Assembly (NCBI GenBank): GCA_023248745.1
Contig: JAHFDZ010000031.1
Coordinates: 1 to 33,312 of the forward strand
DNA length: 33,312 bases
Direction of reading: 5' to 3'
Source: Myxococcales bacterium
GTDB lineage: Bacteria; Myxococcota_A; Polyangia; Polyangiales; Polyangiaceae
In this document: positions 25,983 through 30,791 of the stretch, piece by piece
Layout: each line of letters starts with the position of its first letter
Numbering within the stretch: the first letter of the stretch is position 1
The notes under the pieces: generated by a model
The model's database searches: none
What the model saw: the letters and a program-made list of their open reading frames with translations, nothing else
Told to the model about the DNA's origin: nothing
Program-made: the position numbers and the translations under genes

Positions 25983-27557
25983 TTAGAGTGCGCGAACCAA
26001 TTTGGCGCTCATGCTCACGGTTGCGCCCTTGGCCACGCGCACTCCTATGTAGTAGCTCGCCCCGCTCGCGCCTGTTGTCACTGTGCAAGCTTCGTCTGCG
26101 GTTGGTCCAGTTGATTTACAATTGAACGCTGTGGCGCTCGGGTACGATCCCTCGCGCACGTAGAGGTCTGCGTCACCCTTGCCGGTCATCGTGATGGTGA
26201 CCGTTGTTTTCTCTGGAGCGCCGAGCACGAGGTAGTTCGAGTCGCCTGAGAGCGTGGCGTCACTCAGCAAGATGCGCGTTTCGGTGAGCTGCTTCGGATC
26301 AGCTGCGAGCGCGGTGAGCGTCTTGATGTCCGCGTAGGTGATCATGCCGTTGATAGCCGTCTTGGGATCAGACGTTGGCCACCACGCAAAGTCGGGCTGT
26401 CCGCTACCATCTTTGCCGATCACCCACTGACCACTTAGAATGCGATCGTCTGCGCCGACCGCGAGGATGTAGCGGAAGTGGACCACTTCCGTCAGCTTGG
26501 CCTGATCTTGGACCTCGCGGGATGCGCGTCCAACTTTCGGATACAGAAGGTCGGTCTCGACATCGAAGAATCGCTTCGCAAGTGCGTTTGCGACGGTGCT
26601 CGAATTCGGTCCGAGAATTTTGTCTGCGTCTTGCTTGGAGATTTCGGCGAGGTGGCCGTCCTTCGCGTTCGTGACTTTGAATCCTGAAACGGGTTGGTTC
26701 CAAACTTCGGAGCCCGTGAAGCGCTCGGTGGGTTGGTTCCAAACTTCGGAGCCTGTAAAGCGCTCGGTGGGTTGGTTCCAAACTTCCGAACCCGTGAAGC
26801 GATCGTAGACGAAGCCCTGGTGTCGAACGCCAATGACGTTGGTCATGAGGACGTGCCAAGCGCCTGCATCGCTCACGCGGCATTGTTTTGCTGCGCTGCC
26901 GCTTTGATTCGTAACTTTTGTTGCGTTATTTCCGCACGAGCTGGGCAACGCTTGCGACTTTACCTCGCCCTCGGCGTACAAGGCGCCTCTCAGCGCTTCG
27001 ATGTCTGCACGATAAAATGTAACACCGTTGTATACGATCGAGTCTGCGATCGAGGGTTCGTGGACTGTGGCTGACGCAATGCCGTGGCAAATTCCCCACC
27101 AAGTCGGAACGCACGCCTTCACTTTTCCACTGCCGACGCAGACCGAGCCATCGTTGCTTGCGGCGCAGTCGCTCGTGGTTTTGCAAACTGGGCGATTGTG
27201 CACGGATGCAGTACCGAGCTTGGCGCTCACTGCCGCAGCGAATCCTCTGCGATTGAACGCAAGCTCGAATTTTTCGGCAGGCGACATCGATTTCTCGCCG
27301 TCCCATCGTCGGTTGACGCTGTCTTCGGCGGTTGACCAGTAGTCCGAAGCGAGCGGCGACAGCTGAGGTGCACCTTCGACGGGCAGGCTTGTGGCTTCGT
27401 AGATGAAGCTCGAGCCGATGTACGAAGCAGGGTGATTCGCGCGCTCCCATTCGGTTGCGGCTGCTTCGGTTGCGGTGCCGTCGGCTTCGATGGGTGACGC
27501 AACACAACCGAAGGGAATGGCGAGGGCGAACAGAGAAACAAGACGCTTTTTCGGCAT
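25983..27557 (-). CDS. Elicitor-type transglutaminase-like lipoprotein with C-terminal prepeptidase-like domain
   Basis: The 524-residue protein has a lipoprotein signal (IPFGC, Cys18). It then has a Cys-rich motif (about 124-150) and a papain-like transglutaminase core with WWGICHG (catalytic Cys157), GAWHVLMTN (His235) and VYDRFTG (Asp252). WWG.C.G.A is the hallmark of the elicitor-like transglutaminase group. The VWNQP element that follows the Asp occurs three times in tandem (see repeat). A C-terminal beta-domain (about 415-524; DADLYVREG and ASYYIGVRVAKGATV) looks like a bacterial prepeptidase C-terminal domain. It probably crosslinks or hydrolyses amide bonds at the cell surface. ATG 27557 was chosen; a TTG five codons earlier is in frame. 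Confidence 0.85.
   Translation of the reverse strand: MPKKRLVSLFALAIPFGCVASPIEADGTATEAAATEWERANHPASYIGSSFIYEATSLPVEGAPQLSPLASDYWSTAEDSVNRRWDGEKSMSPAEKFELAFNRRGFAAAVSAKLGTASVHNRPVCKTTSDCAASNDGSVCVGSGKVKACVPTWWGICHGIASATVHEPSIADSIVYNGVTFYRADIEALRGALYAEGEVKSQALPSSCGNNATKVTNQSGSAAKQCRVSDAGAWHVLMTNVIGVRHQGFVYDRFTGSEVWNQPTERFTGSEVWNQPTERFTGSEVWNQPVSGFKVTNAKDGHLAEISKQDADKILGPNSSTVANALAKRFFDVETDLLYPKVGRASREVQDQAKLTEVVHFRYILAVGADDRILSGQWVIGKDGSGQPDFAWWPTSDPKTAINGMITYADIKTLTALAADPKQLTETRILLSDATLSGDSNYLVLGAPEKTTVTITMTGKGDADLYVREGSYPSATAFNCKSTGPTADEACTVTTGASGASYYIGVRVAKGATVSMSAKLVRAL
26691..26807 (-). repeat. Three tandem 39-bp repeats inside the transglutaminase gene
   Basis: The units are at 26691-26729, 26730-26768 and 26769-26807. 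Each encodes 13 residues, RFTGSEVWNQP plus a two-residue joint, and the reading frame is kept. The first two copies on this strand differ at two bases and the third differs by a few more; the RFTGSEVWNQP core is unchanged in all three. Confidence 0.92.
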
Positions 27558-27778
27558 GGGTGATGCTTTCAATCCTTGGACGCGGGCGGTGTAACACCCG
27601 ACGACGTGTGGCGCAAACGGCAGAGACGCGACGGACGCGACCGTTTCTGTGCCGCTAGCGTTCGATGAGTGGTTCGATCGCGGGACGAATCACGCTCGCC
27701 CATTGCGCATGCCGGTCAACCCCTGATGTTGACGAAGGGTGCAGCAATTAATGGGAGATGGGGTTGTCGGCGAGAGGA

Positions 27779-29176
27779 TCAGTGGCCGTCTTTCATCGCC
27801 GCAACGAGGCCCAGCAATGTTTTCTTGGCGTCGCCGAGGACCATCATCGTATTCGGCAAGAAGAACAGTTCGTTCTCTACGCCCGAGAAGCCTGCGTTCA
27901 TGCTGCGTTTGAGCACGATGATTGAGCGCGACAGCTCGACGTTGAAAACGGGCATGCCGTAAATCGGACTGGCGGGATCGGTCTTTGCGGCAGGGTTGAC
28001 CACGTCGTTCGCGCCCACGATGAGCACGGCGTCGGTGCGTGCGAAGTCGTCGTTGATGTCGTCGAGGTCGAAGAGATGATCGTAGGACACGTTTGCTTCG
28101 GCGAGCAGCACGTTCATGTGGCCAGGCATGCGTCCTGCGACAGGATGAATCGCGTAGCGCACTTGCACGCCGCGTTTTTCGAGCGCGGTCGCGAGATCGC
28201 GCACAACGTGTTGCGCTTGAGAAACGGCCATGCCGTAGCCCGGGACAACGATCACGGACTGCGAGGCCATGAGCACTTGCGCCGCATCATCGACGGTCGC
28301 CTCGTTGAACGGCTTGCTCGCGCCCCCTACTGGGGCGGCGCCGGGATCGATCTGCGTGCCGAACGCACCAAAGAGGACGTTCGCAAATGAGCGGTTCATG
28401 GCCTTGCTCATCATGAGCGACCAGAGAATGCCGGACGAGCCGTCGAGCGCGCCTGCGATGATGAGAACGGGGCTGTCGATTGCAAACCCCGTCGCGCATG
28501 CGGCGAGGCCCGCGTACGAGTTGAGGAGCGAGATGACGACGGGCATATCGGCGCCGCCAATGGGAAGCACTGCCATGACGCCAAGCGCGAGACCGGCGCC
28601 GCAGACTGCATAGAAGGCCGGGGCTTGCCCAGGTGACACGATCAAGAAAACGATGACGCCGAACACCGCCAAGAAGAGGCCGATGTTGACGTAGTTTTGT
28701 CCCTTGAATGTGATCGGCGCGCCGGAGATGACGCCCTGCAATTTCCCGTACGCCATGATGCTGCCGGTGAACGTAAGGAAACCAAGGAACGCTTCGAAGC
28801 CAACCGCACCCATCTTGAACGGCGCAAGGTGAACGCCATGGTTGTAGTACTCCGACACGCCGACGAGCGCCGTGGCGAGTCCGCCGAACGCGTGAGAAAA
28901 CGCGATGCGCTCTGGCATCTTCGTCATCGGGATGCGCAGTGAGATCGCCGTTCCGATTCCGGCGCCGATGATGAGGCCGGCAATGATGAACTCGTAGCTG
29001 ACGATCTCTTTGTTCAGCAGCGTAGCGACGACGGCGATGAACATGCCGAGCTCGCCAAGAAAGATGCCACGCCGCGAGGACTGCGGAGAGCTCAGGCCTT
29101 TGAGGCACAGAATGAAGAAGATGCCGGCGATGAGGTACGCGCCGTCGGCCAAGTACAGGCGAACCGCGTCGCTCAT
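27779..29176 (-). CDS. pntB: NAD(P) transhydrogenase subunit beta
   Basis: The 465-residue protein has the expected architecture: multiple membrane helices in the first 270 residues (ELGMFIAVVATLL, FIIAGLIIGAGIGTAISLRI and others) and a C-terminal NADP-binding domain with the fingerprint VPGYGMAVSQAQ and later VGANDVVNPAA. It forms the proton channel half and NADP(H) site of the enzyme that couples hydride transfer between NADH and NADP+ to proton flow across the cytoplasmic membrane. ATG 29176 overlaps the stop of the upstream subunit gene (ATGA). The open frame extends upstream only as a shadow of the neighbouring subunit. Confidence 0.96.
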   Translation of the reverse strand: MSDAVRLYLADGAYLIAGIFFILCLKGLSSPQSSRRGIFLGELGMFIAVVATLLNKEIVSYEFIIAGLIIGAGIGTAISLRIPMTKMPERIAFSHAFGGLATALVGVSEYYNHGVHLAPFKMGAVGFEAFLGFLTFTGSIMAYGKLQGVISGAPITFKGQNYVNIGLFLAVFGVIVFLIVSPGQAPAFYAVCGAGLALGVMAVLPIGGADMPVVISLLNSYAGLAACATGFAIDSPVLIIAGALDGSSGILWSLMMSKAMNRSFANVLFGAFGTQIDPGAAPVGGASKPFNEATVDDAAQVLMASQSVIVVPGYGMAVSQAQHVVRDLATALEKRGVQVRYAIHPVAGRMPGHMNVLLAEANVSYDHLFDLDDINDDFARTDAVLIVGANDVVNPAAKTDPASPIYGMPVFNVELSRSIIVLKRSMNAGFSGVENELFFLPNTMMVLGDAKKTLLGLVAAMKDGH

Positions 29177-29478
29177 TTGTCGTCTCCGCCCGGGCCACGC
29201 TTTTTGAACATGCGCAGCATGCGGTCTGTGATCATGAAGCCGCCGACCACGTTGATCGTCGCGCAAATGACGGCGACGAAGCCCATCAGTTTGCTTGCCA
29301 TTGCGTGATTCGAACCGGCGGCGACGAGGGAACCGACGAGCGAAATGCCGCTGATCGCATTGGTGCCGGACATCAGGGGCGTGTGCAAGAGCGCAGGAAC
29401 CTTGCCGATGACTTGGTACCCAACGAAGCTTGCGAGCGCGAAAATGTAAAAGCCGAGAAACAGGTCGTGACCGCTCAT
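29173..29478 (-). CDS. pntAB: NAD(P) transhydrogenase subunit alpha, membrane part (alpha-2)
   Basis: The 101-residue protein has three hydrophobic helices (about 6-26, 40-58 and 65-85) and ends with a short charged tail. In some bacteria this part is fused to the alpha-1 domain; here it is separate, the three-gene form seen in Rhodospirillum and relatives. ATG 29478 overlaps the alpha-1 stop, and its own stop overlaps the pntB start, so all three subunits are translationally coupled. Confidence 0.95.
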   Translation of the reverse strand: MSGHDLFLGFYIFALASFVGYQVIGKVPALLHTPLMSGTNAISGISLVGSLVAAGSNHAMASKLMGFVAVICATINVVGGFMITDRMLRMFKKRGPGGDDK

Positions 29479-30614
29479 GCGTTCGCGCTCTCCTTCGCCG
29501 CTTTAGTCCCGGCGTGCACGATTTCACCGCCGTGCGTGATCACGCACCCGGCCATGATCTCCTCGTTGAGATCGATGTGGAGCACGCCATCCTTGGAGAC
29601 GTGCAAGAGAAGCTTCTCCATGTTGCGCGAGAACATTTGACTCGCGTGCATGGCGAGGCGGCTTGGAAAGTTGACCTCGCCGATGATCGTGACGCCGTGC
29701 TTTTCGACGACTTTGCCGGGTTCGGTAAGTTCACAATTGCCTTGTTGCTCGGCCGCAAGGTCGACGATGACAGACCCGGCCTTCATCGAGGAGACCATTT
29801 CCTTGGTCACAAGAATGGGTGCTCGCTTGCCGGGAATGAGCGCCGTTGTGATGCAGACGTCGGCTTTGGCGATATGGCGTGCGATAGCTTCGGTTTGTTT
29901 CTGCTTGTACGCCTCAGAAACTTCTTTCGCGTAGCCGCCCGCGGTTTGCGCGTCCTCGGTTTGGTCGACTTCGACGAACTTTGCGCCGAGGCTTTCGACC
30001 TGCTCTTTGACGACCTTGCGCACGTCAAACACCTCGACCACTGCGCCTAAACGTCGAGCGGTGCCGACCGCTTGCAGACCGGCCACGCCCGCGCCAAGAA
30101 TAAGCACACGTGCCGGTGCAATCGTTCCTGCTGCTGTCATGAGCATCGGAAAAAACTTCGGCAACGCAGCCGCAGCCATGAGCACCGCTTGGTATCCGGC
30201 GGCGGTTGCCTGCGACGAGAGCACGTCCATCATCTGCGCAACCGTGGTTCGCGGTATCATGTCGGTTGCGATGGCCGTGATCTTCTTGGCCGCGAGCGCG
30301 CGAACGAGCTCCGTGTTCACGAGCGGGTAGAGCAGGCTCACGAAGAGACTTCCGTCTTTGAGCTTGGCGATCTCGTCGAGCGTGGGGACGCGAATTTTCA
30401 CGACGGCATCCGCGCTGCCAAAGAGCGCTTCCGGCGTGCCCTCGATTGTCGCTCCCGACGACACGTAGTCAGCATCGGGCATATGAGAGCCCGCGCCCGC
30501 GCCCGCCTGCACCGACACGTCAAGTTTCTTACCCGAGAGGCGCTTCACCGAATCGGGAACGACGGCGACGCGCAGCTCCCCTGGAAACGTCTCCGTCGGG
30601 ATTGCGATCCTCAT
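29475..30614 (-). CDS. pntAA: NAD(P) transhydrogenase subunit alpha, NAD-binding part (alpha-1)
   Basis: The 379-residue subunit is related to alanine dehydrogenase. It opens with RIAIPTETFPGELRVAVVP, carries IPRTTVAQMMDVLSSQ (about 121-136) and the Rossmann motif GAGVAG (174-179) followed by the acidic residue that favours NAD (about 197). It is the soluble, membrane-associated NAD(H) site of the proton-pumping transhydrogenase. ATG 30614 matches the family start; a TTG four codons earlier is in frame. It is the first gene of the operon and divergent from the DUF523 gene, so the promoter should lie in 30615-30791. Confidence 0.96.
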   Translation of the reverse strand: MRIAIPTETFPGELRVAVVPDSVKRLSGKKLDVSVQAGAGAGSHMPDADYVSSGATIEGTPEALFGSADAVVKIRVPTLDEIAKLKDGSLFVSLLYPLVNTELVRALAAKKITAIATDMIPRTTVAQMMDVLSSQATAAGYQAVLMAAAALPKFFPMLMTAAGTIAPARVLILGAGVAGLQAVGTARRLGAVVEVFDVRKVVKEQVESLGAKFVEVDQTEDAQTAGGYAKEVSEAYKQKQTEAIARHIAKADVCITTALIPGKRAPILVTKEMVSSMKAGSVIVDLAAEQQGNCELTEPGKVVEKHGVTIIGEVNFPSRLAMHASQMFSRNMEKLLLHVSKDGVLHIDLNEEIMAGCVITHGGEIVHAGTKAAKESANA

Positions 30615-30791
30615 CGGCCGGTCCAAGACATGATCCGCTAGACTCTAGCGAGGCAAGCGGTTGATAGTGAAGTTTGTTGCCGATCGGTGCTCCACCACGT
30701 GCGGCGGTGCAAAGCTCTTACACGTGTGTCACGCTGGTACTGACGCGCCGTACCTTGCGAATGCGCGCGCTTGTCCCTAGACGTGCTCGCG

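Follow-up and report, generated by a model that had tools for sequence, protein, structure and literature searches.

According to PMC9879208, the peptide Pep-13 (VWNQPVRGFKVYE) triggers defence in parsley and potato. The elicitor derives from a region of the Phytophthora transglutaminase GP42 that is essential for transglutaminase activity, as stated in a review (PMC6770897), and is presented as surface-exposed in a second one (PMC9105555). A classification of papain-like enzymes (PMC10318531) describes the GP42 site as a Cys and an adjacent His, which interact either with an Asn located on strand beta-2 or with an Asp from a non-core helix. A 2016 review (PMC4915311) confines the homologs of GP42 to oomycetes and some marine Vibrio. 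A limited search of the literature, which covered its sources in part, found no account of a repeated Pep-13 motif.

The window, namely the whole stretch of 33,312 bases analyzed in this study, contains an intact 524-codon gene, the product of which was assigned to PF16683 (TGase_elicitor) with an E-value of 4.3e-55 and a score of 187.4 bits against a gathering cut-off of 25. The transglutaminase family proposed for the gene in the initial annotation agrees with this assignment. An in-frame TTG at 27572, upstream of the ATG from which the residues are numbered here, would add 5 aa. The second domain detected was PPC (PF04151; E-value of 1.1e-07, 33 bits, cut-off of 25.9). The hydrophobic start ending in Cys18, a feature also present in several relatives in the alignment, suggests a lipoprotein, and the PF16683 protein is probably surface-anchored. 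No second PF16683 gene was detected in the source genome at an E-value of 0.001 or lower; both matches fell within the array-bearing frame described below. The top solved relative was the GP42 transglutaminase of Phytophthora sojae (PDB 3tw5; E-value of 1.1e-37, 227 query residues aligned), of which TWFGISHA aligned with WWGICHG of the window protein, Cys-His thus falling at the GP42 active-site position. AlphaFold2, run on a two-row alignment of the window protein and its relative L032, returned a mean pLDDT of 30.9 and a pTM of 0.23. As for the surroundings, NAD(P) transhydrogenase genes lie upstream of the enzyme gene (27779-30626, minus strand); the alpha subunit is represented by two ORFs (29475-30626 and 29173-29478) and the beta subunit was assigned by eye from its ORF. 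The 3' part of a tmRNA gene, truncated by the contig start, occupies positions 1-113 (Rfam RF00023).

Table 1. Positions of the PF16683 gene, its domains and its repeat units in the window.
Feature	Position	Strand	Basis
TGase_elicitor (PF16683) gene, 524 aa	25983..27557	-	ORF from ATG at 27557, Pfam
Likely lipoprotein signal peptide, ends at Cys18	27504..27557	-	Read by eye
Cys157-His158	27084..27089	-	Invariant in 23-row alignment; aligns with mutated (Ser) position of 3tw5
Whole array, three 39-bp units, residues 251-289	26691..26807	-	Tandem Repeats Finder and translation
Copy 1, YDRFTGSEVWNQP, residues 251-263, has D252	26769..26807	-	Translation
Copy 2, TERFTGSEVWNQP, residues 264-276, E265 at D252 place	26730..26768	-	Translation
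Copy 3, TERFTGSEVWNQP, residues 277-289, E278 at D252 place	26691..26729	-	Translation
PPC (pre-peptidase C-terminal) domain PF04151, residues 447-507	26037..26219	-	Pfam

The only array detected by Tandem Repeats Finder across the window spans 26691-26805 (period of 39, 2.9 copies, 90% matches) and scored 195, whereas shuffled versions of the window (100, with dinucleotides preserved) reached 66 at most. The chance origin of the array was thus rejected. So was its reading as an RNA or DNA element, as the tmRNA piece was the sole Rfam match in the window. Translated on the minus strand, the reading frame stays open across the whole array, which comprises 117 bases or 39 residues and is followed by VSGFKV, a flank found after copy 3 only. 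The full unit, (YD/TE/TE)RFTGSEVWNQP, contains a core (RFTGSEVWNQP) that is the same in all three copies. Four bases of the 33-bp core vary among the copies, all of them at third codon positions and silent, and the 18 bases encoding EVWNQP differ nowhere. The initial annotation had placed three 13-residue copies with the frame kept at 26691-26807, exactly as recovered here, and had regarded the DNA changes in the core as silent, which holds for each of the four variable positions. Its statement that the protein had been held constant is right for the core but not for the two-residue joints, which are YD, TE, and TE ahead of copies 1-3 and VS after copy 3.

The stretch of GP42 aligned with the repeat block, EVWNQPVRGFKVYE, includes Pep-13. 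In this alignment, the repeated block overlaps the plant-recognized Pep-13 segment of Phytophthora GP42, and VWNQP is the start of Pep-13. The Pep-13 identity of the block is new relative to the initial annotation, in which no such connection was made. Copy 3 and its flank (VWNQPVSGFKVTN) are identical to Pep-13 at 10 out of 13 positions, and copies 1 and 2 at 7 out of 13 positions each. Seven more bacterial relatives (L080, L081, L004, L005, L006, L010, and L026) match Pep-13 at 10 out of 13 positions, raising the question of whether Pep-13-sensing plants meet Pep-13 on soil bacteria too.

An acidic residue stands eight positions before the Trp in every copy (D252, E265, and E278). Among the 92 relatives, 86 have Asp at the corresponding position and 6 have Glu (87 and 6 of 93 with the window protein included), and the six Glu-bearing sequences are all from one bacterial family (f28). 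Since the acid is repeated with each copy, Asp252 lies inside the unit and each copy is a complete motif. Asp252 had previously been placed directly before the core, which is correct as to its position but not as to its being outside the unit. The natural occurrence of Glu implies that Asp is not strictly required at this position. Given the Glu in 6 of 92 relatives and the description of the GP42 site in PMC10318531, Asp252 is at most a putative catalytic residue, and we reject it as a demonstrated one.

The copy number was surveyed at 111 loci, namely the best matches from 97 close relatives and 377 genomes of the phylum, and 40 chosen among the remaining phylum matches listed. PF16683 is common in the phylum, with a match in 24 of the 97 close relatives and in at least 100 of the 377 phylum genomes. 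A family ORF was found at 101 loci (103 ORFs with E-values of 1e-5 or lower, based on a profile built without the window sequence); five ORFs lacking the motif were excluded and, once identical stretches had been merged, 93 distinct sequences remained. Among the matches listed, 92 of these motif-bearing sequences possess one copy and the window protein possesses three, and the spacing of the Pep-13 segment is fixed, without insertion, in all of the 92 relatives. A single copy was thus found where it had been anticipated for other family members, and no three-copy homolog appeared among the 92 other distinct sequences from the matches listed. We regard the lineage-specific, in-frame triplication in this PF16683 enzyme-like protein as confirmed. 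Separately, we scanned DNA for two W-N-(Q/E)-P codon runs 10-40 bases apart, a pattern that would overlook diverged copies. Of the 317 genomes scanned from the class it matched 5, and of the 377 drawn from the phylum it matched 4 (the window's genome is counted in both), and a family ORF was found at none of the ten matched loci outside the window's genome. These matches are largely due to chance, because the backwards control pattern matched as well (12 genomes of the class and 9 of the phylum). In a separate pattern search for wider relatives, a genome contig collection gave 34 matches including one relative, L032, and viral contigs gave 25 matches and no relatives. One Vibrio owensii record, with 23.9% identity across 61% of the query, was recovered from plasmids.

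The phylogenetic tree comprised 78 sequences that also hold the Cys motif, with the window sequence entered without its extra copies. The window gene and L009 grouped together as a sister pair with a support of 100/100. L009 belongs to the same genus and is the closest relative among the matches listed (61% identical), and bears one copy with VWNEP for VWNQP. L011, from another genome of the genus, is a more distant gene with a single copy, and no match to the gene was found in a third genome of the genus in the search of the 97 close relatives. Since the sister L009 has one copy, the triplication is, on the basis of this tree, younger than the split of the window and L009 lineages. The silent divergence between the copy pairs, roughly estimated from 7.3 silent sites only, was 0.34, 0.34, and 0.97, implying that the copies are not newborn.

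The distance between VWNQP and PDFxW exceeds 180 residues in 28 of the 82 measurable sequences and is 91-132 residues in the other 54. A GDADLY-like motif lies between the two in 22 of the 28 long-spaced sequences. Of six long-spaced relatives, four gave a Pfam match to PPC above the cut-off, a fifth gave one below it, and the sixth gave none. Five relatives (L006, L010, L014, L045, and L051) bear a PPC-type domain inside the transglutaminase domain, approximately 30 residues past VWNQP, and L011 bears a similar internal insertion without a Pfam match. These insertions indicate that a second domain frequently interrupts the enzyme domain some 30 residues past the Pep-13 segment.

The explanation that we prefer, with about even confidence, is that the Pep-13 segment grew by in-frame tandem duplication and that the copies were kept by selection, likely via altered substrate access or specificity. 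Slippage or unequal recombination would have duplicated a 39-bp block coincident with the complete family motif, which is composed of an acid, Arg, five residues, and Glu-Val-Trp-Asn-Gln-Pro. Both native ends of the segment are preserved, D252 still coming after the strand that precedes it and the VWNQP of copy 3 running into VSGFKV, and the net gain is 26 residues. The added residues may plausibly lengthen a loop at the substrate cleft, and a longer Pep-13 loop might alter the access or specificity of substrates, for which the copies would be retained. Selection on the protein sequence of the copies is indicated by the core changes being silent only. The probability that all four of the four variable core sites are silent was 0.0011 by site counting and 0.0048 with transitions weighted fourfold, both being post hoc values from few sites. 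Selection on the protein since the origin of the copies is thus weakly shown, and the changed residues of the joints (TE against YD and VS) count against it. Most of the functional argument depends on a single draft genome, in one gene of which only four core sites vary, all silently.

Alternatively, the duplication may have occurred in a loop tolerant of insertion, with no effect and with decay yet to come. The large insertions that the region past Pep-13 accepts (a spacing of >180 residues in 28 of the 82 measurable sequences, and PPC above the Pfam cut-off in four of six relatives) fit such neutral tolerance. Nevertheless, these lie about 30 residues beyond the Pep-13 segment, which is uninterrupted in 92 of the 92 listed relatives, and no residue has changed among the three cores against four silent changes. 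We consider neutral tolerance a real rival, though less likely than the preferred explanation.

It is also conceivable that the transglutaminase activity was lost or changed and that the conserved segment was freed to vary. We examined 52 near-invariant columns, each shared by 19 or more of the 21 other relatives aligned. The window protein departs from 11 of them (41 are kept) and L009 from 13, a degree of divergence that suits relaxed or changed function and counts against the preferred explanation by retention. At five positions conserved in 21 of 21 other relatives, the window protein has Ile for W160, Ser for P162, Ser for R207, Asp for N230, and Val for E342, and L009 departs at the same five. 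W160 and P162 stand just after the Cys-His pair; these two, R207, and N230 fall within 26857-27089. The VWNEP of L009 and the long branch leading to the pair (0.97 changes per site) point in the same direction, and the window/L009 lineage may have changed or weakened transglutaminase activity. On the other hand, Cys157-His158, N240, W286, N287, and P289 have been retained, the gene has an intact frame, and the amino-acid sequence of the repeat core is unchanged. A repurposed or weakened enzyme is, in our judgement, an unlikely account of the array, yet a real rival.

Each copy possesses the acid, Arg, and EVWNQP at the spacing of the family, so that any of them could dock beside Cys-His. The three copies could then be interchangeable active-site motifs used in alternative registers, with the copy number setting the loop length and thereby tuning the protein, comparable to surface proteins that vary in phase or length. 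The three exposed glutamines could also be the protein's own cross-linking sites, tying it into the cell surface. We give this proposal very little credence. An assembly artefact is the least credible of all, as the genome is indeed a 459-contig draft but the copies differ mutually at several bases with the frame kept, and the array spans just 117 bases internal to a 33,312-base contig.

If the copies are functional, the window gene would amount to a natural experiment on the Pep-13 segment, which in Phytophthora has a role in transglutaminase activity as well as in recognition by plants, and the segment would be one that can grow by whole units with the gene unbroken. If the array is neutral, even the Pep-13 segment accepts insertion. 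Comparing three copies with one offers a clean test of the part that the Pep-13 segment plays in the enzyme.

The window protein and Phytophthora GP42 belong to the same Pfam family and share the Cys position followed by His, as well as EVWNQP running into a GFKV strand. They differ in that the aligned stretch of 3tw5 contains one copy whereas the window protein contains two more, and in that the latter bears a PPC domain and its transglutaminase activity is putative. The bacterial PF16683 proteins of the same phylum share with the window protein the CH pair and the (D/E)-x7-W spacing but possess one copy each (92 listed sequences) in contrast to three. The placement of PPC varies among them, being terminal in the window protein, represented by a PPC-like stretch behind the enzyme domain in L009, and internal in L006, L010, and others. 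Finally, the array resembles other repeats in coding DNA with periods that are multiples of three in its 39-bp unit, its maintained frame, and its silent differences. Unlike repeats of the low-complexity or surface-adhesin type, the unit repeated in the window is a near-invariant enzyme motif.
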